The notes beneath the pieces were generated by a model. It saw nothing but the letters and a program-made list of their open reading frames with translations, was not told where the DNA came from and ran no database searches. A DNA stretch of 64,000 nt from Deltaproteobacteria bacterium (lineage in GTDB: Bacteria > UBA10199 > JACPAL01 > JAHFST01): the NCBI GenBank assembly GCA_023265625.1, contig JAHFST010000001.1, positions 223,265 through 287,264 on the forward strand. Direction: 5' to 3'. A program made the position numbers and the translations under genes. This document shows positions 1 to 40,114 of the stretch, in pieces. The stretch's first letter is position 1, and the number at the start of each line of letters is the position of its first letter.

Positions 1-3000
1 GGCACGGTGACGAGTGTGGCGACGAGTACGGGTCTGACGGGCGGGACGATTACGGGGAGTGGAACCTTGTCATTGAATTACAGTGATACGTTGGCCAGCA
101 ATAGTCTGGCAACGAAACAAGCGGAATTTTCTGGGGATGGTCAGGGTGCGGTCTTGTTTGAAGGCACGACGGCGGATGGGTTTGAGGGTTTGTTGACCCC
201 GGCGGATCCGACGGCGGATCGGACGTGGACCTTGCCGGACGCGAGCGGGACGTTGGCGTTGACGAGCTCGAGCATCACCGGGAATGCGGCGACGGCAACG
301 GCGTTGGCGGCGAATGGGGCCAATTGCGGCGCGGGGAGTTATGCGTTGGGGGTGGATGCGTCCGGGGCTTCCGAGGGGTGTACGACCGATGATGATACCC
401 CGGATAACGATAGCGAGGTGCCGAACGATATTACGATTATTTCAACCTCTCAATCACAGAGTTTCACCTTGGGGGCGACGAATCTTTTTGCCATCGATGC
501 AATCACCGCGGCGAATACTGGGACCAGTGGGGTGATCAACCTGGATGTGGGGGCCGGGGATGCGGCGGTGGTGGGAATCGACAATGCCCTGACCCAAAAC
601 AATGGGGCGGCGGCGGGACGTGATGCGATCGCCGAAAATATTACCCTGACTGGAAACGATGCGGATGGGGACATGTTTGGCATCAAGATCACCGGCGCGG
701 CGACGGCCACGGCCGCGGCCGGGACTTATGAGGCGGGGATTACCATTGATGATGCGGAAGAGACGGTTGGTTCGATGCCAGATGCTATCTTGATTACCTC
801 GAGCGGGGCCAACGGGGGCGTGACGGATGCGATCGATGCCTCGGCGGGAAATATTATCAATGCCCTGAATGCCGGGATGAACAATATCCTGTTTTCAGAG
901 TCGGACGGAAATGGCGATACAATCACATTAAGTCCTCCCGGGACGGTGAGCGGGAATATTGCATTGAGTTTGCCTGCATCCGCGGGAACGATCGCCCTGA
1001 CGACGGGGAATGTTTCCACGGCGACGGCCTTGGCGGCCAATGGGACCAATTGCAGCGCCGGGAATTATGCCTTGGGTGTGGATGCCTCGGGAAATTCCGA
1101 GGGGTGTACGACGGATGATGACACACCGGACAATGATAGCGAGGTGCCGGACAATATCACGATCGCATCCACCGTGACCAATGCGGCAGGTGGATCGGCC
1201 AATCCCATCGATATCACGAGCATCTTGGCGGCCTTTAACGGGTCGGATGACTACACGGCGATTGATGTCAATCTGATCAATGGGGATCATAGCGGGTCAC
1301 TGAATACGGTTCAGGGTCTTGATATCTCGGGAATTGCGGGGAGTGCCCAAGCCACGGAGACGGCCATCAAGGTGGGGGCGGGATGGGATGTGGGATTGAA
1401 CCTCAATAAAAATACGCTCGTGTTTGCGGAGACCGATGGCAATGGCGACACGATTACCGTCACCCCTCCGGTGACGGTGTCGGCGAATACCACACTGACA
1501 TTACCGGCGGTGACGGGGACACTGGTGACGACGGGGGACAGTCAAAGTGTGACCTCGACGATGATTACGGATGGAACGATTTTGAATGCGGATATCAATG
1601 CTTCTGCGGCGATAGCGTTGAGCAAGTTGGCCGCCGGGTCGGATGCGCAGATAATTGTGGTGAATGGGACTGCGCCGGCTTATGCGACGATGAGCGGTGA
1701 TGCGACGATTGGCAATACAGGGTCAGTGACGATTGCGACTGGCGCGGTGACGACTGGGAAGATCTTGGATGGGACGATTACGGAGACGGATTTGGCGACG
1801 AACACGTTGGCGGGGAACCCGGCTTTGACAGCGGGACAGATCTCGTTTGATACGAGTGACAGCCAGGGTGGATTGATGTTTGAGGGTGCGACGGCGAATG
1901 CGTTTGAGGGATTGTTGACGGTGGTAGAGCCGACGGCGGATCGGACTTGGTCGTTGCCGGATGTGACTGGGACGATTGTGACGACGGGGGACAGTCAAAG
2001 TGTGACCTCGACGATGATTACGGATGGAACGATTTTGAATGCGGATGTCAATGCCTCGGCGGCGATTGCCCTCTCGAAGTTAGCGGCCGGGTCGGATGCG
2101 CAGATAATTGTGGTGAATGGGACTGCGCCGGCTTATGCGACGATGAGCGGTGATGCGGCGATTGGTAATACCGGGGCAGTGACAATCAACGACAACAGCG
2201 TGGATGGGACTGATATCGCGTTGGGCTCAGATGCTCAAGGGGATGTGATGTATTACGACGGGACTGACTGGGCCCGATTGGCCGCGGGCACTTCGGGACA
2301 GTTTCTCAAGACGCAGGGAGCGGCAGCCAATCCCATTTGGGGAGATGCAGGAGATATGACAGCAGTCGGGGATGTGACGACGGGTGCGGCGTTCACGGCG
2401 ACGGCGGGTCAGGATGGCAACAGCCTCTATTTTGAGGGAGCGGGTGGGGCGGATGGGTATGAGATCCAGCTGATTGGGGCGACGAATACGACGGCGGATT
2501 ATGCAGTGACCATTCCGGCGATTACCGGGACCTTGATCACTACGGGTGATACCGGGACCGTGACTTCAACGATGCTCTTGAATGGGACGATATTGGATGC
2601 GGATGTCAATGCCTCGGCGGCGATTGCCCTCTCGAAGTTGGCGGCCGGGTCGGATGCGCAGATAATTGTGGTGAACGGGACTGCGCCAGCTTATGCGACG
2701 ATGAGCGGTGATGCGGCGATTGGTAATACCGGGGCAGTGACAATCAACGACAACAGTGTGGATGGGACTGATATCGCGTTGGGCTCAGATGCTCAAGGGG
2801 ATGTGATGTATTACGACGGGACTGACTGGGCCCGATTGGCCGCGGGCACTTCGGGACAGTTTCTCAAGACGCAGGGAGCGGCAGCCAATCCCATTTGGGG
2901 AGATGCAGGAGATATGACAGCAGTCGGGGATGTGACGACGGGTGCGGCGTTCACGGCGACGGCGGGTCAGGATGGCAACAGCCTCTATTTTGAGGGAGCG

Positions 3001-5610
3001 GGTGGGGCGGATGGGTATGAGATCCAGCTGATTGGGGCGACGAATACGACGGCGGATTATGCAGTGACCATTCCGGCGATTACCGGGACCTTGATCACTA
3101 CGGGTGATACCGGGACCGTGACTTCAACGATGCTCTTGAATGGGACGATATTGGATGCGGATGTCAATGCCTCGGCGGCGATTGCCCTCTCGAAGTTGGC
3201 GGCCGGGTCGGATGCGCAGATAATTGTGGTGAACGGGACTGCGCCAGCTTATGCGACGATGAGCGGTGATGCGACGATTGGCAATACAGGGTCAGTGACG
3301 ATTGCGACTGGCGCGGTGACGACGGGGAAGATCTTGGATGGGACGATTACGGAGACGGATTTGGCGACGAACACGTTGGCGGGGAACCCGGCTTTGACAG
3401 CGGGACAGATCTCGTTTGATACGAGTGACAGCCAGGGTGGATTGATGTTTGAGGGTGCGACGGCGAATGCGTTTGAGGGATTGTTGACGGTGGTAGAGCC
3501 GACGGCGGATCGGACTTGGTCGTTGCCGGATGTGACTGGGACGATTGTGACGACGGGGGACAGTCAAAGTGTGACCTCGACGATGATTACGGATGGAACG
3601 ATTTTGAATGCGGATATCAATGCCTCGGCGGCGATAGCGTTGAGCAAGTTGGCCGCCGGGACGAGTGCTCAGATGATCGTGGCGGACGTGAGCGGGGTAC
3701 CGACGTATGTGACGATGACGGGGGATGTGACGAACAGCAACACGGGGGCGATGACGATTGCGGACAACAGCGTGGACGGGACGGATATCGCCCTGGGCTC
3801 GGATGCCCAAGGGGATGTGATGTATTACAACGGCACCGATTATGTCCGTCTCGCGCCGGGGACCAGCGGCCAGGTCCTGACCACGGCCGGTGCTGCAGCC
3901 AACCCCAGTTGGAGTGATGCCGGTTCCGGGGACATGACGGCGGTGGGGGATGTGACGAGTGGTGCGGCGTTTACGGCGACGGCGGGGCAGGATGGGAACA
4001 GTCTCTATTTTGAAGGGGCGGGGGCGGCCGACGGGAACGAGATCCAGCTGATCGGGGCGACGAATACGACGGCGGATTACGCGGTGACGATCCCGGCCAT
4101 CACCGGTACCCTGGTCACCGATGCCTCCAGCCCCACCTGGACCGGGGCCCACACCTTTACCCAAACCGTGACGAATACGGGATCGATCCAGGATGTGAAC
4201 CTGACACTCGGCAATGATGCGGACACCGACACTATTTCTGGCATCAACATCGATGTGACCTCGGCCGCCACCGGCGACGCCGATGTGGTCTATGGACTCA
4301 ATGTTGGCAACCTCTCTAGCGCGGATGCGACGGTCACAGAGACCGCCATCCGGGTTGGATCAGGATGGGATCAGGTCCTGGATCTGAACGGGACGACTCT
4401 CTCTGCGACGGAGCTCGGGTATCTGGACGGAAAGAATGCCGCCTTGGTTGATCAAAACGATCTCACCAGCGGTGATGGGGCGGGTGCGACCAGTTCAGGC
4501 TCCGGCTTGGAGACTGGGACCGGTGGGATTGGGCTGATCCAGGGTTGCTCTGCGGGGCAGACTCTCAAATGGGATGACACCAACTCACTGTGGCAATGCG
4601 GCTCGGATCGGGCAACGACAAGCGTAGTCAGCTTAGCCGATGACTCCTGGGTAGACAGCACCTTTGTGACCATTGGTACCGCGGGTGGCGCTACCTTCAC
4701 CTTTACAACAGGAGCCAATGAGACCTGGGTCTTCTTTGCCTACCTCCATGTTACATCTGACCAAACCCCAGACATGAAGTTTCAGGTCGCTACCAACCAG
4801 ACCGATGACACCTGCGTGGTGGGTGTCGATAGTATCGAGGCCGCCTCGTCGGTCGGCAATGTGGCTTGCGACACTAGCTCCGGAACTATTGCCGTGGCCA
4901 CAACAAACGACGAAACAGTCCTTGTATCAGGAAGTGTGACCGCTGTGACCGCCGACACAGTGAACATACAGGCAGCCCAAGCGACGACGAATGCCACAGC
5001 ATTCAAAGTATACAAGGGTAGCTACCTCCTGGCCTACAGGGTCACCGGTGCCGATCTCGCCGAGACCTATTATTCCGTCGATCGCGATATTAAGGCGGGA
5101 GAGCTGGTGGCCCTAGATACCGGGGCCGCTGGTGAGGTGCGCAAGACCGCTCGTCCCTATGACAACAACACCTTGGGCATTGTCTCCACCAAACCCGGTC
5201 TGGTCATGGGCGACCCGCCCACGGGAGCGGCCTCCCATCCCGTCTTGGTGGCGATGGCCGGCCGTGTCCCAGTCAAGGTCACGACCCATCACGGTCAGAA
5301 TCCGATCCGAGCGGGAGACTTTCTCACCAGTTCGGAGGTCCCGGGAGTGGCGATGCGCGCGGATCGTCCGGGTCAGGTGATCGGCAAGGCCCTGACGTCT
5401 TTGGCCGCGGACCAGGATGAGGGCGTGGTGATCGCCTTTATCGAACCAGGGTACCGCGGACCGGAAGTCGAGCACGAGAATGAATCGGACCACCCCGAAC
5501 CGGCGCCAGATCATTTTCTCTTGAAGTCACCCAACGGATCTTGCTTCAAGGTGATGGTAGGCGACGATGGCCAGCTAGCCTCCCAGCCGACTCTTTGTCA
5601 GGAACCTTAA
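1..5610 (+). CDS. Giant modular repeat surface/tail-fibre-like protein (5' partial)
   Basis: The frame is open from the first base, so the true start lies upstream of the window; GTG at 7 is only an in-frame codon. More than 1,860 residues are visible. They are Ala/Gly/Thr/Asp-rich and built from recurring modules: TADRTWTLPDASGT-type strands, a Cys-pair motif (NC then about 18 residues then EGC) followed by an Asp-rich DDDTPD stretch, and SxLAAGSDAQ units. The C-terminal part (from about 4530) is non-repetitive. It contains GADLAETYYSVDRDIKAGE, resembling the C-terminal processing domain (peptidase G2-like) of phage fibre-type proteins in many uncultured bacteria. I infer a secreted or surface fibrous protein. 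Its paralog follows at 5761. No function can be assigned from sequence alone. Long antisense ORFs over this gene reflect its stop-poor repeats. Confidence 0.8.
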   Translation, partial: GTVTSVATSTGLTGGTITGSGTLSLNYSDTLASNSLATKQAEFSGDGQGAVLFEGTTADGFEGLLTPADPTADRTWTLPDASGTLALTSSSITGNAATATALAANGANCGAGSYALGVDASGASEGCTTDDDTPDNDSEVPNDITIISTSQSQSFTLGATNLFAIDAITAANTGTSGVINLDVGAGDAAVVGIDNALTQNNGAAAGRDAIAENITLTGNDADGDMFGIKITGAATATAAAGTYEAGITIDDAEETVGSMPDAILITSSGANGGVTDAIDASAGNIINALNAGMNNILFSESDGNGDTITLSPPGTVSGNIALSLPASAGTIALTTGNVSTATALAANGTNCSAGNYALGVDASGNSEGCTTDDDTPDNDSEVPDNITIASTVTNAAGGSANPIDITSILAAFNGSDDYTAIDVNLINGDHSGSLNTVQGLDISGIAGSAQATETAIKVGAGWDVGLNLNKNTLVFAETDGNGDTITVTPPVTVSANTTLTLPAVTGTLVTTGDSQSVTSTMITDGTILNADINASAAIALSKLAAGSDAQIIVVNGTAPAYATMSGDATIGNTGSVTIATGAVTTGKILDGTITETDLATNTLAGNPALTAGQISFDTSDSQGGLMFEGATANAFEGLLTVVEPTADRTWSLPDVTGTIVTTGDSQSVTSTMITDGTILNADVNASAAIALSKLAAGSDAQIIVVNGTAPAYATMSGDAAIGNTGAVTINDNSVDGTDIALGSDAQGDVMYYDGTDWARLAAGTSGQFLKTQGAAANPIWGDAGDMTAVGDVTTGAAFTATAGQDGNSLYFEGAGGADGYEIQLIGATNTTADYAVTIPAITGTLITTGDTGTVTSTMLLNGTILDADVNASAAIALSKLAAGSDAQIIVVNGTAPAYATMSGDAAIGNTGAVTINDNSVDGTDIALGSDAQGDVMYYDGTDWARLAAGTSGQFLKTQGAAANPIWGDAGDMTAVGDVTTGAAFTATAGQDGNSLYFEGAGGADGYEIQLIGATNTTADYAVTIPAITGTLITTGDTGTVTSTMLLNGTILDADVNASAAIALSKLAAGSDAQIIVVNGTAPAYATMSGDATIGNTGSVTIATGAVTTGKILDGTITETDLATNTLAGNPALTAGQISFDTSDSQGGLMFEGATANAFEGLLTVVEPTADRTWSLPDVTGTIVTTGDSQSVTSTMITDGTILNADINASAAIALSKLAAGTSAQMIVADVSGVPTYVTMTGDVTNSNTGAMTIADNSVDGTDIALGSDAQGDVMYYNGTDYVRLAPGTSGQVLTTAGAAANPSWSDAGSGDMTAVGDVTSGAAFTATAGQDGNSLYFEGAGAADGNEIQLIGATNTTADYAVTIPAITGTLVTDASSPTWTGAHTFTQTVTNTGSIQDVNLTLGNDADTDTISGINIDVTSAATGDADVVYGLNVGNLSSADATVTETAIRVGSGWDQVLDLNGTTLSATELGYLDGKNAALVDQNDLTSGDGAGATSSGSGLETGTGGIGLIQGCSAGQTLKWDDTNSLWQCGSDRATTSVVSLADDSWVDSTFVTIGTAGGATFTFTTGANETWVFFAYLHVTSDQTPDMKFQVATNQTDDTCVVGVDSIEAASSVGNVACDTSSGTIAVATTNDETVLVSGSVTAVTADTVNIQAAQATTNATAFKVYKGSYLLAYRVTGADLAETYYSVDRDIKAGELVALDTGAAGEVRKTARPYDNNTLGIVSTKPGLVMGDPPTGAASHPVLVAMAGRVPVKVTTHHGQNPIRAGDFLTSSEVPGVAMRADRPGQVIGKALTSLAADQDEGVVIAFIEPGYRGPEVEHENESDHPEPAPDHFLLKSPNGSCFKVMVGDDGQLASQPTLCQEP
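1681..2046. repeat. Long direct repeat, copy 1 (second copy 1,569 bp downstream)
   Basis: This stretch encodes MSGDATIGNTGSVTIATGAV through TSTMITDGTILNAD. It recurs with almost identical nucleotides 1,569 bp (523 codons) downstream, at about 3250-3615. The two copies flank the tandem 558-bp units, giving an A-B-B-A arrangement. Confidence 0.85.
2041..3156. repeat. Two tandem 558-bp near-identical repeats inside the giant gene
   Basis: The block starting GCGGATGTCAATGCCTCGGC at 2041 recurs at 2599 and begins again at 3157, a period of exactly 558 bp (186 codons). The two full units are almost base-for-base identical, including silent positions. This points to a recent in-frame duplication rather than selection on protein only. 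Each unit encodes the sequence from DVNASAAIALSKLAAGSDAQ through MLLNGTILDA. Confidence 0.9.
3250..3615. repeat. Long direct repeat, copy 2
   Basis: Second copy of the block at 1681-2046, nearly identical at DNA level. It is followed by divergent sequence (ADVSGVPTYVTMTGDVTNSN), so the homology ends inside the gene. Homologous recombination between the copies would remove or add 523 codons in frame. Confidence 0.85.
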
Positions 5611-5760
5611 AATATTATCAAAATTGCCGCACATGACGCTTTTTTGACACCTAAGCCTATTTTAATGATAAATTAAATAGATTAAAATTAAATATATTAA
5701 TAATATCATATATTTATATAATATATTTATCGATAGTAAATGAGCTTATTGGTCCAGTAA
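5611..5760. other. Very A+T-rich intergenic spacer between the two giant genes
   Basis: About 120 bases made almost only of A and T (5650-5740) separate two G+C-rich genes. No RNA gene or hairpin with a T-run is evident. The low melting stability fits a promoter region for the downstream gene. Confidence 0.6.
5644..5672 (+). promoter_or_regulatory. Candidate sigma70-type promoter for the second giant gene
   Basis: A perfect TTGACA at 5644-5649 is followed after 17 bases by GATAAA at 5667-5672. A second -10-like TATAAT lies at 5717-5722 but has no good -35. This is sequence matching only; in such A+T-rich DNA chance matches are likely. Confidence 0.35.
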
Positions 5761-8700
5761 TTGCACCTACTTTTACAGGTGAACTGGCGTCTAAAATTAC
5801 TCCTGGTCTTGGTGTCCCTGTTTTTGGGAAATTCATTGTTTGCGGCGCGTCTTACCTTCCCCAATTATGGATTTTTTGTGGATGCCGATGGGGTGCCGTT
5901 GGATGGGGATTATGCGGTGACCTTTAGTCTCTATACGGCGGCCACCGATGGCACGGCCCTGTGGACGGAGACCCAGACGGTGGCCTTCGACAATGGGCTC
6001 TACAATACCACCCTCGGGGCCTCGGACAGTAATTTGTTGCCGGATGACCTGGCCGACAACACGGCGCTCTATCTTGGGATCAAGATTGCCGATGATGCCG
6101 AGGCGACGCCGCGGGTGGCTTATTCCTCCACCCCTTGGGCGAAGTTGGCCGAGGTGGCGGATCGGGCCACGCTGGCGGATGTGGCCACGGTGGCGCAATC
6201 CTTGAACTCCAGCGGCGCGACTAGTTTGGCGGGGAATGGTCTGCGTGTCTCAGGCTCAACGATTGGACTCGATACCTCTTCGATTCAGACTTGGACGGGG
6301 CTGCAAACGTATAGTTCGCAATTGGTTTCATCCAAAGATCCGGCCGATACGACTTCTGCCAATGCCTCGGTGTTGATCAATCCGACAACCGCCAGTGCCA
6401 ATGAAAAACTTTTTGCCGCCCAGGACAACGGTACGGATCGCTTCACGATTGACAAAGAGGGCGATGTGACAATCGGCGGAACCCTGACGGTCACCGGTGG
6501 CATCGCCAGCCTGACGGGCGTGGGGGATGTGACCTCGGTGACGGCCAGCACAGGCTTGACGGGTGGCGGGGCCAGCGGGGATTTGACCTTGGCGCTCGAT
6601 CAGTCGATCAATGCCAGTTGGACGGGGATTCACCTGTTTCAGACAGATGTCAATTTTCAATTTTCCGGCTCAGAAAATCTGGCGGTGACCTCCGACTTGG
6701 CGGGTTCAGTGGACATGCTTTCCATGGTGGCGACTCCATCGGCCACGGCCGGTACCACCCGGGGGATTGTTATTCAACAGGCGGATAGTGCCAACACCAA
6801 CGGGTTGGATGTGGGTCTGGTGATTGACAATGCGGATGCGGATCTGGCGTTGCCGAAGGGGATTCAAATCAAAGGCTCATCGTTGGGGGCGGTGACGACG
6901 GCGATTGACGCCTCGGATGCGGAGATTGGCACGGCCCTGGATGTGGGTGGGAATACGATCAGCTTTTCCGAGACGGATGGGGGTGGGGATGCGATTACCC
7001 TCCAACCGCCTACCACACTGAGCGGTAATATTACGTTAACCCTGCCAACGGCGACTGGAACCTTGGCCTTGACAACATCGAGCATTACAGGGACTGCGGC
7101 AATGGCTACGGCGTTGGCGGCGAACGGGACCAATTGCAGCGCGGGGAGTTATGCGTTGGGCGTGGATGCGTCGGGAAATGCGGAGGGATGCACGGTGGCG
7201 ACAACGGGGAGCGTGACGAGCGTGGCGCCAGGGACTGGGCTCACGGGTGGGACGATCACGAGTACGGGGACACTGTCGTTGAATTACAGCGATACGTTGG
7301 CAAGCAATAGCTTGGCCACAAAACAGACGGAGTTTTCCGGGGATGCTCAAGGTGCCGTTTTGTTTGAAGGCTCGACGGCGGATACGTTTGAGGGGTTACT
7401 GACTCTGACGGAGCCAACGGCGGATCGGACGTGGACCTTGCCGGATGCGAGCGGGACGGTGGCGTTGACGAGCTCGAGCATTACGGGGAATGCGGCGACG
7501 GCGACGGCCTTGGCGGCCAATGGAAGTAATTGCAGTGCCGGGAGTTATGCGTTGGGGGTGGATGCCTCGGGAAATGCGGAGGGGTGCACGGTGGAGACGA
7601 CCGGGACGGTGACGAGTGTGGCGACCGGGACCGGATTGACTGGCGGGACGATCACGAGTACCGGGACAGTTTCCATGAGTTATAGTGCGACGTTGGCTGG
7701 GGACCCAGCTTTGACGGCGGGGCAATCGGTATTTGACTCCGGCGACAGCCAGGGTGGTTTGTTATTTGAGGGGGCGACGGCTAACGGATTTGAGGGACTT
7801 TTGACCGTCACTGAGCCGACGGCGGACCGGACCTGGACGCTGCCGGATACGACTGGGACGGTGGCGTTGACAACGAGTAACGTGTCGACCGCGACGGCGT
7901 TGGCGGCCAATGGGAGCAATTGCAGCGCCGGGAGTTATGCGTTGGGGGTGGATGCCTCCGGGGTATCCGAGGGGTGCACGGCGGATGATGATACGGCGGA
8001 TACTGATGCCAAAGTGGCGAACGATATCACGATCGCCTCAACCTCTCAGTCGCAGACCTTCACCCTTGGGGCGTCTAACCTTTTCTTGATTGATGCCTCC
8101 ACCACGGCCAACACGGGGACCTCCGGGGTGATTGATTTGAATGTGGGGGCCGGGAATGCGGCGGTGGAGGGGATAGATATTGGTTTGACGCAAAACAATG
8201 GGGCGACAACCGGGGTGGATGCGGTCGCGCAAAATATTTTGTTGACCGGCAACGATGGGGATGGGGACATGTTTGGCATCAAGATTACCGGGGCGGCAAC
8301 GACCAATGCCTTGGCTGGGACCTATGAGGCGGGGATTACGATTGATGATGCCGAGGATACGGCGGGCTCCATGCCGGATGCGATCTTGATTACCTCCAGT
8401 GGGATCAATACCGGAGTGACGAATGCGATCAATGCGTCAGCGGCCAATATCACCAATGCGTTGAATGCCGGGGTGAATAATATCTTGTTTGCGGAGACAG
8501 ACTTGGGCGGTGATGCAATCACGTTGAGTCCGCCGGCGACAGTGGCTGGGGGTATTGCCTTGACGTTACCGGCATCAGCGGGGACGATTGCGTTGACGAC
8601 AAGCAATGTCTCAACGGCGACGGCTCTGGCGGCCGATCCTGCGAATTGCGGGGCGGGTCAATGGGCCGGTGGGGTCACGGCGGCCGGTGTGGCGGAGGGA

Positions 8701-10359
8701 TGCACGGCGGATGATGACACGCCGGATGATGACACGGAGGTGCCGGACAATATCACGATTGGTTCGAGTGCCAAGAACCAGAGCTTCACCTTCGGGGCGG
8801 CTAATCTTTTTACGATTGATGCCACGACGACGGCAAACACGGGGACGACTGGGGTGATTGATTTGAATGTGGGGGCCGGGAATGCGGCGGTGGAGGGGAT
8901 AGATATTGGTTTGACGCAGAACGATGGGGCGACGGCGGGGGTGGATGCGATTGCACAAAATATTGTTTTAACCGCCAACGACGCGGATGGGGACATGTTT
9001 GGTATCAAGATCACCGGCGCGGCGACGGCGAATGCGGCGGCTGGGACCTATGAAGCGGGTATCGTGATCGATAATGCGGAGAATACATCGGGTTCGATGC
9101 CGGATGCCATCCTAATTACCTCGAGTGGCGCTGCTGGTGGGGTGACCGATGCGATCGATGCCTCGGCGAGTAACATTACGAATGCGTTGAACGCCGGGGT
9201 GAACAATATCTTGTTTGCGGAGACGGACGGGAACGGGGACACGATTACGTTGAGTCCCCCGGCGACGGTAAGTGGTAACATTGCCTTGACCCTGCCCGCT
9301 TCTGCCGGGACGGTGGCCTTGACAACGAGCAATGTTTCAACGGCGACGGCCTTGGCCGCGGATCCTGCGAATTGTGCGGCGGGTCAGTGGGCGGCCGGAG
9401 TGACAGCGGCTGGGGTGGCGGAGGGTTGTACGGCGGATGACGATACGCCGGATAGTGATTCGGAAGTACCCAATGATATTACGATTGCGTCAACGGTGAC
9501 GAATGCTCTGGGGGGGTCAGCCAATCCGATCGATGTTACGAGTACGTTGTTAGCCTTTGACAATTCGGACGATTACACGGCGGTTGATATCAATTTGGTC
9601 AATGCGGATCATGGAGGGGCTTCCAATACGGTTCAGGGGGTCAATATCTCAGGAATCGTGGGGGATGCGCAGGCGACGGAGACAGCGATCAAGGTGGGTT
9701 CGGGTTGGGATTATGCGTTGGATGTGAATGGGTCGATCCGGGTGCGGGCGGATGCCAGGACCATTGCGGATAGTGGAGACGGGAGTGCCGCGACCCTGAC
9801 CCTGGCCCCCACCACCTCTCACGTGGAAATAACCTGCAACGATACTGATGGGTGCAATATTACCATGTCGGAAACCGGGATCAACCAGGGCCAGGAGGTG
9901 GCGATCATCAATGTCTCGTCCAATATCGTCCGTTTTACCGAGACCAGCGGGGTTTCGGAGATCCCAGGAAATTTTAATGCGAGACAGTACGATGTCATCT
10001 CCATGCGCTACATCTCGGATCGTTGGGTGGAAGTCGGTTCGATCCGGACCAGGGTTGATGCGCGGACCATCGCGGATAACGGCGGTGGTACTGCCGCCGC
10101 CTTGACCCTGGCCCCCACCACCACCAGTGTGGAGATTACCTGTAGCGATGCCGACGGGTGCAATATCACCATGTCGGAGACTGGGATAAGCCAGGGCCAG
10201 GAGGTGACGATCATCAATGTTTCTTCCAATACGGTAAACTTCGCCGATACTAGCGGAGTTTCCGAAATAGCCGCGGCCTTTGCCGCGGGACAGTATGATG
10301 TCATCACGATGCGCTACATATCCGATCGTTGGGTGGAAGTCAGCCGTAGCAACAATTAG
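5761..10359 (+). CDS. Giant modular repeat secreted protein with N-terminal signal peptide
   Basis: This 1,532-residue protein is a paralog of the preceding one. The N-terminus has a hydrophobic signal peptide (LKLLLVLVSLFLGNSLFA). A domain of about 110 residues follows (GVPLDGDYAVTFSLYTA... TPRVAYSSTPWAKLA), of a type common at the start of large secreted repeat proteins of uncultured bacteria. The body is tandem modules sharing TADRTWTLPDASGT, Cys-pair/EGCTADDDTPD and ILFAETDGNGDTITL segments with the upstream gene. It ends in two tandem repeats of about 100 residues instead of the G2-like domain. The start is uncertain: TTG at 5761, or GTG at 5779, which leaves a tidier signal peptide (NWRLKLLLV). 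Neither has a clear ribosome site. I infer a secreted or surface role, ligand unknown. Confidence 0.8.
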   Translation: MHLLLQVNWRLKLLLVLVSLFLGNSLFAARLTFPNYGFFVDADGVPLDGDYAVTFSLYTAATDGTALWTETQTVAFDNGLYNTTLGASDSNLLPDDLADNTALYLGIKIADDAEATPRVAYSSTPWAKLAEVADRATLADVATVAQSLNSSGATSLAGNGLRVSGSTIGLDTSSIQTWTGLQTYSSQLVSSKDPADTTSANASVLINPTTASANEKLFAAQDNGTDRFTIDKEGDVTIGGTLTVTGGIASLTGVGDVTSVTASTGLTGGGASGDLTLALDQSINASWTGIHLFQTDVNFQFSGSENLAVTSDLAGSVDMLSMVATPSATAGTTRGIVIQQADSANTNGLDVGLVIDNADADLALPKGIQIKGSSLGAVTTAIDASDAEIGTALDVGGNTISFSETDGGGDAITLQPPTTLSGNITLTLPTATGTLALTTSSITGTAAMATALAANGTNCSAGSYALGVDASGNAEGCTVATTGSVTSVAPGTGLTGGTITSTGTLSLNYSDTLASNSLATKQTEFSGDAQGAVLFEGSTADTFEGLLTLTEPTADRTWTLPDASGTVALTSSSITGNAATATALAANGSNCSAGSYALGVDASGNAEGCTVETTGTVTSVATGTGLTGGTITSTGTVSMSYSATLAGDPALTAGQSVFDSGDSQGGLLFEGATANGFEGLLTVTEPTADRTWTLPDTTGTVALTTSNVSTATALAANGSNCSAGSYALGVDASGVSEGCTADDDTADTDAKVANDITIASTSQSQTFTLGASNLFLIDASTTANTGTSGVIDLNVGAGNAAVEGIDIGLTQNNGATTGVDAVAQNILLTGNDGDGDMFGIKITGAATTNALAGTYEAGITIDDAEDTAGSMPDAILITSSGINTGVTNAINASAANITNALNAGVNNILFAETDLGGDAITLSPPATVAGGIALTLPASAGTIALTTSNVSTATALAADPANCGAGQWAGGVTAAGVAEGCTADDDTPDDDTEVPDNITIGSSAKNQSFTFGAANLFTIDATTTANTGTTGVIDLNVGAGNAAVEGIDIGLTQNDGATAGVDAIAQNIVLTANDADGDMFGIKITGAATANAAAGTYEAGIVIDNAENTSGSMPDAILITSSGAAGGVTDAIDASASNITNALNAGVNNILFAETDGNGDTITLSPPATVSGNIALTLPASAGTVALTTSNVSTATALAADPANCAAGQWAAGVTAAGVAEGCTADDDTPDSDSEVPNDITIASTVTNALGGSANPIDVTSTLLAFDNSDDYTAVDINLVNADHGGASNTVQGVNISGIVGDAQATETAIKVGSGWDYALDVNGSIRVRADARTIADSGDGSAATLTLAPTTSHVEITCNDTDGCNITMSETGINQGQEVAIINVSSNIVRFTETSGVSEIPGNFNARQYDVISMRYISDRWVEVGSIRTRVDARTIADNGGGTAAALTLAPTTTSVEITCSDADGCNITMSETGISQGQEVTIINVSSNTVNFADTSGVSEIAAAFAAGQYDVITMRYISDRWVEVSRSNN
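9736..10356 (+). repeat. C-terminal tandem duplication of about 100 codons
   Basis: Two consecutive units each run from RADARTIAD/RVDARTIAD through EITCxDxDGCNITMSETGI, GQEV.IINVSSN and YDVI.MRYISDRWVEV. The units fall at about 9736-10041 and 10042-10356. They are clearly homologous but more diverged at DNA level than the repeats in the upstream gene. Each unit carries a close Cys pair (ITC...GC). Confidence 0.85.
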
Positions 10360-34145: not shown

Positions 34146-36725
34146 ATGGCTTTTCCTTTGAGTCAGGTTTGTTGGCCCGCGGTCCACGTGGCAGATGCGA
34201 TCGCTCGATTTCAGGGGGCGAACGGGTCTCAGATGCCGGTCGCTTGGCAGGAAGTGGATCGAATTGTTCACGCCACTAGTTCAGTTTTTCCTAATAATAT
34301 AGATGACTTACCTGTTTTACCCAGTGACGACCCTGAGGTGGTTCGAAGGGCGTTAGACGCGATTGTGGGGTCCCTGCGCAGCGCGAATCTCCTTCCTGCC
34401 TTTCACCCGTTGAGCCTTGGGACGATGACCGTTCATGCCGGGCTGGCCGGTGAAGTGGTGTCGCTTGAAGCCGTTTCCCCGTATCAGGTGAGGCGTTTTG
34501 GTTTCAAGGCGACCCGTTTGGCCGAGGTGATGCGATTGGGGCTTCCGGTGCCCAAAGGGGTTGTGGTGACCACCGATTGTGTTGACAGGCTCTTGGCTGA
34601 CGGTGAGAGGGATCCTCTGTTGCTGGATGCCCTGGTTTGGCAGTTGTTGCGGCAGTTGCGCGAGATCGGGCTTGATCTGACTGCAGAGCATCCCCCATTG
34701 GTGGCGGTGCGCAGCGGGGCCCCGACGATCATGGAAGGGATTATACCGACGCTGCAATATGTCGGACTCAATGACCAAACGGCCGCAGGTCTCGTGGCGC
34801 AATACGGAGAAGAGCAAGTTGAACGGATTTATCTTCGCTTCATCACACAATTTGCCGAAGAGATTGCCGGAGTGGCTCCTGCGGACTTCGCCAAGGTGCT
34901 GGAGGCCTTGGAGGGGGCAACCATGTGGGAGCGGGTCGCCCATGCCAAACGGCTGTATCGGGTTTATGCCGACGCCGATTTTCCGGAGGGCGTTGTGGAA
35001 CAACTCCGAATGGTGGTGGGGGCGATTGCCCGATCTTGGAATGCGGCGGGGGTCGTTCAGCATCGCCGCTTGAATGGCATTGAGGATCATCCTCCGACCG
35101 CCTTGATTGTGCAGGAACAAAAATTTGGCGGATTGGGGAAGGATTCGGCCTCGGGGGTGCTTTTTACGCGCAATCCGAAAAGCGGGGCGGCGGGCGATTG
35201 GGGCAGCGCCAAGCTCCACGCTGGCGGGGATGAGGTGATGACTGGTTCCGATAGACGTGCCCTGCCGTTACGGAGGTTGTTTTTTTACATGGAAGCGGCG
35301 CGGGATTCGCTCCGTGGCATGACGCATCGGTTAGAGTCCCACTTTCACGGTCCCCAAAAGCTTGAATTTGTGGTGCAGGATGGGGAAAGTTGGGTGACGC
35401 AGGTGGATCCCATGGTGCTTTGGCCGATGGCGCGGGTGCAGGTGGCCGTAGCGATGAATCGCGAAGGAATCATGACGGATGCGGCTTCCGTCAGATTGGT
35501 CAATGATGGGGTTTGGTGGGCGCTGGCCTCGCCCCGTTATCGGCGTCACCCCGGCATGATGTCCGGTTATTTGCTCTCCGGAAAATCCTTGGTCCCGGGA
35601 ATCGCCAAGGGGAATATCACGTTTGACTATGAAGGCCGGATGTTGCAGCCGTGTGCGGATCGATCCCTAGTCATTGTCCTCGATTATGTGGCGCCGGCCC
35701 ATTGGGATTGGGTGCTCAAGCATGCCGTGGCGATTGTCTTTGTTGCGTCCCCGCCAGCCCATTTTATTCCGCGGGCCCTGGCTGCGCGGGTGCCGGTGAT
35801 CCTCTCACCGGGATTTTCGGAGGGGGCCAAGCAGACCCTGGAGGAGGGCGCCAAGGTCTGGTTGGATGCTACGCATGAAGATGGATGGCTCAGTGATCAA
35901 GCCACGACGGAGAAGTTGGGGGAACGGGCGCGGTTTTTGCGAAATGAGCTGACTCTGGCGGATATCCAGGGAGAGAACGCGCGTACGGAGGTGGCCACGA
36001 TCCTAGCGTTTCGGGAGATTCAGGCAAGATATGAACGGTCTCGGACCACGGCCTCTCCCAAAGAGGTGGGGCCCGTTGTCGAATCATTTCTGAGGGAGGC
36101 TCAATGGTCAAAACCCCTGTTGGAAGACGCCATTTTTGACCATGGCTGGGGGCGACTGCTGAGTAAGCCCTCTTCGTTAGGGCGTCATGACGGTTATGCC
36201 CCTACTAAAGAAGATTTTGTTTACGAAATGAATGTGGAACGAGTGCGCGATTTTGTGACCGCACTTTGGCAACAGGACCCGGGTTCTCCCAAGCGGCTCG
36301 CATTGGCCTTTGTCGATACGGAACAGCATGAACATGCCTTCATGAAACACCTGTTTCGGCTCCTGGATGATTCCTTCAAGGGGGCTTTTTTAAACGAGTA
36401 TGTTCGGGCGGCCCAGAGCTTGAACAGGGCCCCCGGCCGGCCCAGCGGGATCTATCTGTTGAGCCGGTTGGTGTCGCAATTTTTTGACGTCCCCACAATG
36501 AGTTTGGCCCCGCTCGGGGAATTAACCGATGAGTCCGTCGAGTTTTTGTCGAGGGAACTCGACGATTTTTATCAGGTCTTGGAGGGCCGCTCGGAAGCGG
36601 GACCTCGTTATGCCCGGCTTTATAACCGGCTGGAGGTCCAAGGGATTGCGTTGCGTAACCCGGCGTTGCATGACAAGGCAAAATTGATGAACTACTTTTT
36701 GCGGCGGTCCAGTAATGAAGGTTGA
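34146..36725 (+). CDS. PPDK-like protein: ATP-grasp plus phosphohistidine domain, no PEP barrel
   Basis: 859 residues. Residues about 110-470 match the nucleotide-binding part of pyruvate phosphate dikinase: FGFKATRLAEVMRLGLPVPKG, LVAVRSGAPTIMEGIIPTLQ, YADADFPEGVVEQL, VVQHRRLNGI, SGVLFTRNPKSGA and KLEFVVQDGESWVTQVDP. A swivelling domain follows (SGKSLVPGIAKGNITFD...). Its usual TxGGMTSHAA is degraded to VASPPAHFIPRALA, with a His retained. The C-terminal PEP/pyruvate TIM barrel is missing. Instead about 250 unrecognised residues follow, ending FLRRSSNEG. I infer an ATP-dependent phosphotransferase with another acceptor, or a catalytically altered relative. The 3' end overlaps the convergent hypothetical by 34 bp. 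Confidence 0.7.
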   Translation: MAFPLSQVCWPAVHVADAIARFQGANGSQMPVAWQEVDRIVHATSSVFPNNIDDLPVLPSDDPEVVRRALDAIVGSLRSANLLPAFHPLSLGTMTVHAGLAGEVVSLEAVSPYQVRRFGFKATRLAEVMRLGLPVPKGVVVTTDCVDRLLADGERDPLLLDALVWQLLRQLREIGLDLTAEHPPLVAVRSGAPTIMEGIIPTLQYVGLNDQTAAGLVAQYGEEQVERIYLRFITQFAEEIAGVAPADFAKVLEALEGATMWERVAHAKRLYRVYADADFPEGVVEQLRMVVGAIARSWNAAGVVQHRRLNGIEDHPPTALIVQEQKFGGLGKDSASGVLFTRNPKSGAAGDWGSAKLHAGGDEVMTGSDRRALPLRRLFFYMEAARDSLRGMTHRLESHFHGPQKLEFVVQDGESWVTQVDPMVLWPMARVQVAVAMNREGIMTDAASVRLVNDGVWWALASPRYRRHPGMMSGYLLSGKSLVPGIAKGNITFDYEGRMLQPCADRSLVIVLDYVAPAHWDWVLKHAVAIVFVASPPAHFIPRALAARVPVILSPGFSEGAKQTLEEGAKVWLDATHEDGWLSDQATTEKLGERARFLRNELTLADIQGENARTEVATILAFREIQARYERSRTTASPKEVGPVVESFLREAQWSKPLLEDAIFDHGWGRLLSKPSSLGRHDGYAPTKEDFVYEMNVERVRDFVTALWQQDPGSPKRLALAFVDTEQHEHAFMKHLFRLLDDSFKGAFLNEYVRAAQSLNRAPGRPSGIYLLSRLVSQFFDVPTMSLAPLGELTDESVEFLSRELDDFYQVLEGRSEAGPRYARLYNRLEVQGIALRNPALHDKAKLMNYFLRRSSNEG

Positions 36726-37795
36726 TGAGGTTTTTTGACTTTAGGAGGAATGTTTGGAGGTCTGTCAGGTAAAGGGTTAATAGATTGCGGCGATGTCCAG
36801 CCCAAGAGGGGCATGCCGAAGTCGAAATTGATTTGGAAATCTTTTTCTAAGTTTAAGGCGTGGCGCCAGGATTGTTGCCAGCTTTGGAGCGCCTCCAACT
36901 CTCCCGCTGCAAAAATTTTCCTCAACTGCGCATAGTCCAGGCCCATTAAGTCACCGATAAAACGAATATGATTTTCCCATAGACAGGCGACGATCTTTTT
37001 TTGTGTCGAATCGGTGGAAGAAAATTGCACTTGTTGGATTGGCAGATCAAAGTGTTTTTGGAGCTTGCTCAACTCCGCATAGAACCAAGTGGCATATTTG
37101 GGACCTGAATTCAAAGCGGGAAAGCGAGTATACAGAGTGCTGACAATGGGGAGAGATACTCCTGGCTTATCGGCATCTGGCCCTATTTGTCGTGTGCCGG
37201 AGATCAATTCAAAGCCGGCAATCAGTCCCATGATGCATAGCAGGAGAGAACTTTCCTCACGGATTGCATATCGACCGGTACCGGAGGGGGCGTTCACAGC
37301 GAGATCTTTGGTTATCTGGGGGGTTTGAAAAAGAGCGAGGGCTTGTGCTGGTTGGGGGACAGCAGTTGGCCTGCCTGCGTAGGCCAGATCCAAACCGCGT
37401 AGCGAGAAATAGTCTTGCGTCAACGTTTCGTCACTTGTACCCCCACAAATCAGGGAAACTACCGCCAGCTCCGTTTGCAGGACTAAGTCGGTACAGTAGA
37501 GGCCCAAGGTTGGGGGAAAATCTCGTTCCAAGATCAATCGGGCGGAAGTGGCGCTGTCTTGGCACAAAATACCCCGGACGGGGAGGTGAGGGAGGAATCC
37601 CAGGGCGCTCACGGAGGTTTGTACCCTGACAAAACGGGTTTGAGTTGAGTCGACACCGAGGGTTTCTGCGGCCCTGCCCAGCAGTCTGTCTTCCGACAAT
37701 TGGCTCGACCGACGCACAAAGAGCGTATTGGCCCTGAGCTGCCCCAGGAGGGCGCGGAAGAAGGTTAACTGCATGGTTGTAAGCGCTGGTGCCAT
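36692..37795 (-). CDS. Hypothetical protein (367 aa)
   Basis: No family recognised. ATG 37795, with MQLTFF at 37774 as an alternative. A soluble protein with several hydrophobic strands (LAVVSLICGG, SLLLCIMGLIAGFELI) and five Cys. It ends in a Pro/Lys-rich tail (NPLPDRPPNIPPKVKKPHQP). The segment ENHIRFIGDLMGLDYAQLRK faintly recalls helix-hairpin-helix or RNA polymerase alpha-CTD patterns; this is weak. It lies 23 bp after the IMPase-HAD gene on the same strand, so probably co-transcribed. Its end overlaps the convergent PPDK-like gene by 34 bp. Confidence 0.6.
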   Translation of the reverse strand: MAPALTTMQLTFFRALLGQLRANTLFVRRSSQLSEDRLLGRAAETLGVDSTQTRFVRVQTSVSALGFLPHLPVRGILCQDSATSARLILERDFPPTLGLYCTDLVLQTELAVVSLICGGTSDETLTQDYFSLRGLDLAYAGRPTAVPQPAQALALFQTPQITKDLAVNAPSGTGRYAIREESSLLLCIMGLIAGFELISGTRQIGPDADKPGVSLPIVSTLYTRFPALNSGPKYATWFYAELSKLQKHFDLPIQQVQFSSTDSTQKKIVACLWENHIRFIGDLMGLDYAQLRKIFAAGELEALQSWQQSWRHALNLEKDFQINFDFGMPLLGWTSPQSINPLPDRPPNIPPKVKKPHQPSLLDRRKK

Positions 37796-37818: not shown

Positions 37819-39648
37819 TCAGTGAAAAAGTTGCTTCTCCAGCTCAGGCAGGGCCACCGCCCAATCTTCGATCAGAAAGTCGGCCCCAGCATCAATCAGG
37901 CGACGGCGATTTAATTCCCAAGTGAGTCCCGTGCCCTGAGGGACTCCGAAGTTAATGCCACCGAGTTCCTTGACCGTTGCCATCCCATCCGGGGTGTCGT
38001 TGTAGAAGAGGATGGTGCCGTGGAAACGCCGTTTAAGGGCCAGAATGGCCTCTTTACGGAACTCATCTTTATCCCTAACAGCGGGCATATTATCCCTGGT
38101 GACGACATTCTTGGGGCCTATCAGGTCTAACAGGTCCGCATTTCTTAGTTGGGCCAGGACTTTGGTCCGGCCAACCGCGGCATAGGTAGGGGTCACAATC
38201 GGGACGTCTTTTCTGCGATATAGCGAGAAAAGATCCGGGATGCCTCTCATCGGTTGGGGAAATTCGGTCTCGCCGCGCTCATCCATGAAGCTGTAAAATC
38301 TATCCGCCGCTGTTTTTGGGGTCAGACCTTTTTTCAATCTGGCCAGGCGTGCGAACACCTCCTGATCTGAAATGCCATAGGTGTTTTCTGCCACCCAGGC
38401 CGCTGCGTCGACGGCAGTTCTATGGGGTAGGATGGAGCAATAGGTTTGCTCAAGACTTTCTTTCCAGTTGGGTTCCAGGGTCGTACCGTGGATGTCAAAG
38501 ATGGCCAGATAAGGCGGTCTAAAATGGGCCGTGCGTCCTTCGATGCGGATCAATCCACGCCGGGATGGAACTGGTGCTACGTCCAGGCGTACGGCGGGAC
38601 AGGAAACTTCTTTGTGATTCATTGGAAAAGTATCAAGCGCCCCCCGGTAAGCGCTCAGTCCGAGATCATGCAGTCGTCCATTGCTCCCTAAAATACCGAA
38701 ATTGCGGCCGAGCACTGGGCCCACACTGAAGTCGAGGGGCCGATCTAATAGATCGGTAACTTTGCCTCCAGCCTCTTCCACGAGCAGACTATAAGGAGCA
38801 TGATCCCAGATTTGCAATTGCCGGGTCCAAGGCAGGCTCAAGGGGGCGCGCATCACGATATCCCCCACACCACCTGCCAGGAGTGCATACCGGCGCGGAC
38901 TGGGGGCCTGAATAGTCCTTTCCTCCGGAAATCCCCCGTATAAGGTTTGGAGAAATGCCCTATCACCGGGATTGACTTCCCCATGCGACAAGTTGACTAA
39001 AGAGCGTAGCAAGATGGCCTCTTGTGGACCTCGAGCAGACACGCAGAGGCGCTTAAAATCCTCGCTCCCATCCAGCGGGGCGGCCCATGAGCCATATCCC
39101 TTGATGGCCATCAACAGGAGGCCTTCTTTTTGGGGAAATTGCGGCAGGCGCAAATGCGGAAAACCGATGGCGGAGAGTTGGACGACGCCCTCATTGATTA
39201 AGGCCAAGTTGATGGCGTAGTCACGCTGTTCCATGTAATAGGTTGCATCGATTGGATCCAAGACCCAGGTCCTGGCGCCCGAGGTCGGATAAGACACGCG
39301 ATCAATCCAGAAGTAGGGGTTGTCGATCCTGGTCTTCCCGGGGATGGAGAAGGGTCTTCCCTGGATTAATAAGTCATAGAGGGACTCCGCCGTTTCTTCC
39401 CCCATGAAACCATCATGGGGAAACCGATCCGATAGCCAGCGACTTGCCAAGGTCTTGAGCACATAATCGATCGACGTGACCTTGCTGCCGTCAGGCTTGA
39501 CGGCGGTCCAATAGTCTCCGGATTGCAATAGGTCTTCGGCAAGCCGACAACATTTTAAGACGATGTGAGCCGCAGCCCGGGCGTCGCCAATGAGGATGGC
39601 TGGCGCAAAAGAGAGGGTGGGCAGTGGGGGGCGTGTGCTTGGTATCAT
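37819..39648 (-). CDS. Fusion of an IMPase/bisphosphate-nucleotidase-like domain and a HAD-like domain
   Basis: 609 residues. Residues about 20-330 have FIG-superfamily metal sites: VKPDGSKVTSIDYV, GFMGEETAE, WVLDPIDATYYM (WxxDPxDGTxxF-like, with Ala for Gly) and IWDHAPYSLLVEEAGGKVTD. This is closest to Hal2/CysQ-type nucleotidases or inositol monophosphatase. Residues about 385-600 look like a HAD hydrolase: AIFDIHGTTLEP (motif I), VPIVTPTYAAV (motif II), a Lys in FRKEAILALKRRF, and ILFYNDTPDGMATV (motif IV). In motif I the second Asp of DxD is His, so activity may be altered. Substrates are unknown. Probably in an operon with the downstream hypothetical. Confidence 0.75.
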   Translation of the reverse strand: MIPSTRPPLPTLSFAPAILIGDARAAAHIVLKCCRLAEDLLQSGDYWTAVKPDGSKVTSIDYVLKTLASRWLSDRFPHDGFMGEETAESLYDLLIQGRPFSIPGKTRIDNPYFWIDRVSYPTSGARTWVLDPIDATYYMEQRDYAINLALINEGVVQLSAIGFPHLRLPQFPQKEGLLLMAIKGYGSWAAPLDGSEDFKRLCVSARGPQEAILLRSLVNLSHGEVNPGDRAFLQTLYGGFPEERTIQAPSPRRYALLAGGVGDIVMRAPLSLPWTRQLQIWDHAPYSLLVEEAGGKVTDLLDRPLDFSVGPVLGRNFGILGSNGRLHDLGLSAYRGALDTFPMNHKEVSCPAVRLDVAPVPSRRGLIRIEGRTAHFRPPYLAIFDIHGTTLEPNWKESLEQTYCSILPHRTAVDAAAWVAENTYGISDQEVFARLARLKKGLTPKTAADRFYSFMDERGETEFPQPMRGIPDLFSLYRRKDVPIVTPTYAAVGRTKVLAQLRNADLLDLIGPKNVVTRDNMPAVRDKDEFRKEAILALKRRFHGTILFYNDTPDGMATVKELGGINFGVPQGTGLTWELNRRRLIDAGADFLIEDWAVALPELEKQLFH

Positions 39649-39706: not shown

Positions 39707-40114
39707 TTAACCCCAGAGGAAGGTGACCGGGATCTGGACCTCCGGATGGAGCGACTTATGGACCGGGCAGCCCAGGGCGGCGCGTTCCAGGAGTTCTTGA
39801 TCGGATTTTTTGATCCCGGCGGGGCCGGTGATGACCACCTTGAGGCTCCCAATACGGCGGGTGGGTTGACTAGTCATCTCTTTTTCGACGCTGGTCTTCA
39901 TCCCTGTGAGGTCAATCTGGTGGCGCTTGGCGACGATCCCCATGGTGATGGCCATGCAACTCCCGAGGGCCGTGGCGACCAGGTCGGTGGGGGAGAAGCT
40001 GCTGCCCTTGCCCTGGTTGTCGACCGGGGCGTCGGCGATCAGGTGGGTCCCGGACGGGGTGTGGATGGCCTCGACATCGAGGTCGCCCCGATAAGTCATT
40101 TCGATTTTGACCAT
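39707..40114 (-). CDS. OsmC family peroxiredoxin-like protein
   Basis: 135 residues. OsmC/Ohr fold: GSSFSPTDLVATALGSCMAITMGIVAKRH places the first redox Cys. LLERAALGCPVHKSLHPEVQ places the second. The pattern is closer to the YhfA branch than to Ohr. It is expected to reduce organic hydroperoxides or to act in sulfur metabolism as a thiol peroxidase. Single gene, divergent from the proline-linker hypothetical with almost no gap. Confidence 0.88.
   Translation of the reverse strand: MVKIEMTYRGDLDVEAIHTPSGTHLIADAPVDNQGKGSSFSPTDLVATALGSCMAITMGIVAKRHQIDLTGMKTSVEKEMTSQPTRRIGSLKVVITGPAGIKKSDQELLERAALGCPVHKSLHPEVQIPVTFLWG

Follow-up and report, generated by a model that had tools for sequence, protein, structure and literature searches.

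The two halves of the fused gene described here have their nearest described relatives in the HAL2/SAL1 proteins (TIGR01330; solved structures 4hxv, 1k9y and 8f9y) and in the HAD hydrolases (PF00702), respectively. In a related class II FBPase the main metal site is formed by a DPIDGT stretch, according to PMC10289334. HAD phosphatases, according to passages of PMC8069645 and PMC3946280, use the first of the two Asp of motif I as nucleophile and the second as general acid/base. Within the window (the whole 64,000-nucleotide stretch of DNA that was analysed), the open reading frame at 37819..39648 on the minus strand departs from both textbook active sites, combining a HAD domain that has His at the acid/base place with a domain from a HAL2 branch that lacks the Gly. 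HAL2/SAL1 is the best match to the N-terminal half, in which the metal-ligand positions are all kept; the window protein differs in reading DPIDAT rather than DPIDGT, in having SPRRY in place of the SQxKY loop, in changes at other residues fixed in the family, in scoring under the curated cut-off, and in being fused to a HAD domain. The C-terminal half resembles HAD hydrolases in its profile-profile match, its nucleophile Asp, the GT after motif I and a similar C-terminal RLIxAGADFxI stretch, and differs from them in having His where motif I carries its second Asp, in the spacing of NDTPD, and in having no Pfam match of its own. Our preferred reading, held tentatively and at somewhat less than even confidence, is that the gene encodes a lineage-specific fused phosphatase with two sites and a shifted substrate, the activity of the HAD half being uncertain.

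A single reading frame and its HAL2-like half

The frame encodes 609 residues with no internal stops, which bears out the proposal of an earlier note, made from the letters of this DNA, that an IMPase-like and a HAD-like domain lie in one chain; both folds are recognized by homology. Read in this frame, both halves score as coding, at 0.18 and 0.21 bits per codon; the remaining five frames score negatively for either half, and third-position GC is close between the halves (0.62 and 0.60). The short linker scores nothing, and an ATG at residue 343 of the junction (residues 338–362; 38563..38637, minus strand, as for all parts of this gene) has by eye no evident ribosome site. A frameshift joining the domains, a concern of the earlier note, found no support, the frame being intact and codon use similar in the two halves, and an artefact of stop loss is also disfavoured by the HAD relative in genome G004, which likewise occupies the C-terminus of a longer chain. 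Judged from its sequence, the gene genuinely joins divergent members of two known folds in an intact frame; the novelty is that each half comes from a small branch with shared active-site changes. The fused protein had no match in PHROGs, Rfam gave none at gathering thresholds, and counts from a promoter and terminator scan were no higher than in shuffles.

The N-terminal domain (residues ~26–337; 38638..39573) matched PF00459 with 84.5 bits (E-value 1.1e-23), above the curated cut-off of 27, and the HAL2 model TIGR01330 with an E-value of 1.2e-35 and 123 bits, under its cut-off of 267; its top match among solved structures was 4hxv (1e-30). By these matches the domain is a member of the IMPase superfamily, nearest to the 3'(2'),5'-bisphosphate nucleotidases of HAL2 type. 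The DPxDG[T/S] motif of the PF00459 family is absent, the corresponding stretch reading DPIDAT (residues 131–136; 39241..39258), with Ala for Gly; since the two Asp and the Thr remain, the domain appears to be a derived relative and not a typical IMPase member. The other recognizable stretches are GEE (residues 83–85; 39394..39402), WDH (residues 281–283; 38800..38808), which retains the Asp of a metal-ligand position, and SPRRY (residues 250–254; 38887..38901), which stands where HAL2-like proteins from other classes have SQxKY. We presume from the family what roles these positions play and which ones contact PAP in yeast Hal2.

The lost glycine as a trait of a HAL2-like branch

An alignment of seven HAL2-like proteins of the class, namely the window protein, four paralogues from the same genome and one protein each from genomes G013 and G044, revealed that the Gly after DPxD is missing in all seven, with the replacements A, V, A, V, F, S and K. 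For comparison, a search of 385 genomes at an E-value of 1e-25 gave 22 further HAL2-like loci beyond the class; DP[IV]DGT was present in 20/20 of those parsed, the other two being unparsed, and the Gly was also present in 30/30 of the best IMPase loci of a 45-genome survey, so that it was kept in all 50 motif-read IMPase and HAL2-like sequences outside the branch. A 28-row tree placed the seven class proteins together on one side of a split supported at 100/99, nested within the outside HAL2-like proteins of other lineages; inside this group the branches are long and the internal order is unsure. Seven metal-ligand or catalytic positions, numbered as in the window protein (D61, E84, E85, D131, D134, T136 and D282), and thus both Glu of GEE, were identical in 7/7 class and 20/20 outside proteins. 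Columns 56, 135, 139, 147, 249, 251 and 253, in contrast, were fixed in 19 or 20 of the 20 outside proteins and altered in every class member; among the residues of DSQxKY and DGT, the Gly, D, Q and K were altered in 7/7, and the S was retained in three, including the window protein.

A shift of substrate would give just such a change, in all seven proteins, at seven columns fixed outside, and the column pattern fits better with a metal enzyme that has a changed substrate than with plain decay; lost phosphate binding could account equally well for the missing Gly of the seven proteins. The latter would suit the main rival to our reading, which we regard as unlikely though deserving of serious weight, namely that one or both domains are no longer phosphatases and serve instead for the binding of phosphorylated ligands, for regulation or as a scaffold. 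The varied replacements of the Gly and the long branches within the clade are in keeping with this, whereas the N-terminal metal-ligand positions are invariant in 7/7 proteins, and dead enzymes usually lose metal-ligand and nucleophile residues early. Under the reading that we prefer, the N-terminal half would be a derived, Mg-dependent phosphatase of the HAL2 family with its metal site kept and its substrate pocket changed, most likely taking phosphate off something other than PAP (3'-phosphoadenosine 5'-phosphate).

The genome (2.93 Mb) contains five HAL2-like genes in all, compared with at most one per genome elsewhere (385 genomes, E-value 1e-25); the other four each stand alone, three of them on contig 25 and the fourth on contig 26. 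Such a number of copies in one genome may hint at an unrecognized phosphorylated metabolite in the class. The three on contig 25 are clustered (64029–69462; L037) beside a 578-residue ORF that has a zinc-protease-like motif, HELGHLLGLDH. Two further members of the IMPase superfamily in this genome both read DPLDGT, unlike the DPIDAT of the window protein: a stand-alone 269-residue IMPase, which we take to be of SuhB type, and a CysQ-like protein whose gene is cut by contig ends and adjoins CysC (APS kinase, PF01583) and a CysH-like ORF, the CysQ and CysH identities being presumed from their sequences. As PAPS-making genes and an ordinary CysQ candidate are present, PAP recycling is probably covered, and the fused protein may have an unusual substrate.

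The divergent HAD domain

The C-terminal half (residues ~363–609; 37822..38562) had no match to Pfam when searched alone. A relative from the same order in G004, 36% identical to it, matched PF00702 at 32.9 bits (cut-off 26.4), and a two-row profile of the two proteins matched a profile of four ordinary HADs with 96.3% probability (E-value 1.9e-9). Motif I reads DIHGT in the window protein (residues 385–389; 38482..38496) and DLHGT in G004, so that both retain the nucleophile Asp (D385 in the window protein) and 2/2 members have His instead of the second Asp. The earlier note had pointed to this His and to DPIDA (residues 131–135); both are present and, as described above for DPIDA, both changes are common to relatives. 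A sequencing error at DIHGT is ruled out by the DLHGT of another genome. Three HAD_2 matches of the window's own genome read DLDGT, DFDGT and DFDGV.

At an overall identity of 36%, the window and G004 proteins agree fully or almost fully over FD[IL]HGT, PNW, NDTPDGM and GGINFG, which places the presumed active-site loops among the most conserved segments. In the region of motif IV the two share the identical stretch NDTPDGM (residues 550–556; 37981..38001); in both, the first Asp of NDTPD aligns with that of ordinary HADs and the second acid comes one place early. At motifs II and III the window protein has Thr486 and Lys532, and the G004 relative, by reading of the same alignment, has Ala and Glu, with an Arg adjacent to the Glu. 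Given the Ala and Glu of G004 and the displaced acid of motif IV, the HAD domain may not hydrolyse phosphate. The replaced second Asp of motif I and this displaced acid are further points for non-catalytic domains, against which stand the nucleophile Asp and the motif IV loop, invariant in both HAD proteins.

A different possibility is that the HAD half catalyses something else than the hydrolysis of phosphomonoesters, such as C–P cleavage of phosphonatase type or phosphoryl transfer. HAD branches without a second Asp in motif I provide a precedent, as phosphonatase and haloacid dehalogenase have no acid at this place, and the only NCBIfam lead was to the phosphonatase-like TIGR03351 (E-value 0.2, 11.6 bits for the window HAD; 0.0095, 15.9 bits for that of G004). 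These scores are nevertheless far under the cut-off of 218.9 bits, and the linked HAL2-like half is from a family that handles phosphate esters; we consider this chemistry distinctly improbable. In the two-site phosphatase that we favour, the C-terminal half would use its kept nucleophile Asp, with the His most likely standing in for the Asp as general acid/base. The HAD profile found no usable match among solved structures, and a single-sequence prediction of the domain had a pLDDT of 35.7, a model that was unusable.

Distribution of the fusion and its gene neighbourhood

The comparison covered 45 other genomes of the same class, five of them of the same order and none of the same family. The HAD family was present in two of these 46 class genomes, and strong matches among 385 genomes came from the same two. 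Two weak matches among the 385 were rejected: the L039 protein, the nearest HAD relative outside the family, is an ordinary DFDGT HAD with a plasmid relative (CP069395.1) annotated as 'HAD family hydrolase', and at L040 we saw by eye no HAD-like ORF of at least 150 residues. The family was absent from the plasmids, phages and viral contigs searched, and a search of genome contigs with the whole protein or the two-row HAD alignment found none, through an exact-peptide prefilter that would miss distant relatives.

In G004 the HAD relative is the C-terminal end of a 975-residue protein (L035 9588–12515). Residues 319–499 of this protein match phrog_1843, a phrog of unknown function, with an E-value of 5.7e-21, and with this match lying upstream the HAD partner there is not HAL2-like. 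The N-terminus of the 975-residue protein is membrane-like by eye.

Both halves were matched together in none of the other genomes of a 60-genome survey, so the search for the fusion elsewhere, which the earlier note had suggested, brought no second case. That note knew of no standard fusion of the two folds in this order, and we likewise met no precedent; no description of such a fusion was found in searches of open-access papers, which is weak evidence of novelty. The linkage holds for this gene, and beyond it the domains are largely separate, as four paralogues of the N-terminal half stand alone and the only close HAD relative is otherwise partnered.

The single occurrence, the free-standing paralogues and the unrelated partner in G004 would all be expected of a chance gene fusion in which the halves are uncoupled, each working or failing alone. 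Set against this are the intact frame and the coding-like codon use in both halves; and as same-family genomes are absent from the comparison, a young fusion cannot be told from one kept within the family, so that its rarity does not fix its age. A chance fusion strikes us as improbable. Coupling itself cannot be judged from conservation, the fusion having been seen once; in the two-site phosphatase preferred here, the sites would most likely act on one small molecule or on successive intermediates. A bolder version, which we think quite unlikely, would have the HAD half represent a new catalytic branch, with His as acid/base in a phospho-Asp mechanism, and the other half a HAL2-derived phosphatase branch with a rebuilt substrate pocket; between them they would strip two phosphates, or one phosphate and another group, from a metabolite specific to this bacterial class.

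The fused gene is on one strand with two neighbours: an OsmC-like gene 58 bp upstream (39707..40114, minus strand), a possible operon partner, and, 23 bp downstream, a gene for a 367-residue protein of unknown family (36692..37795, minus strand), found in 1/60 genomes, its own. The earlier note had suggested a phosphate-transfer pathway linking the two domains with a PPDK-like kinase and a hypothetical protein. The PPDK-like gene (34146..36725) lies on the plus strand, converging on the operon-like pair made up of the fused gene and the 367-residue gene and overlapping the end of the latter, and with no conserved neighbourhood a shared pathway is unsupported. The product of the PPDK-like gene resembles the N-terminal part of PPDK only; a loop contains a His near the canonical phospho-His, where the alignment is loose and we base no claim on it. 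The PEP barrel was not recognizable in this protein.

The one long relative of the PPDK-like gene is a 1189-residue ORF in G001 (L036 8176–11745; 35% identity), and in that genome no member of the HAD family or of the 367-residue family was found, so that co-occurrence with the PPDK-like gene did not emerge. By eye, part of the C-terminal segment of the G001 ORF is present twice, and the 2161-residue ORF beside it (L036 1584–8069) appears to be a fusion of biotin carboxylase, biotin carrier and carboxyltransferase-like parts. Elsewhere in the window, positions 7–10359 hold two very long ORFs, of 1867 and 1532 residues, that look surface-protein-like by eye.
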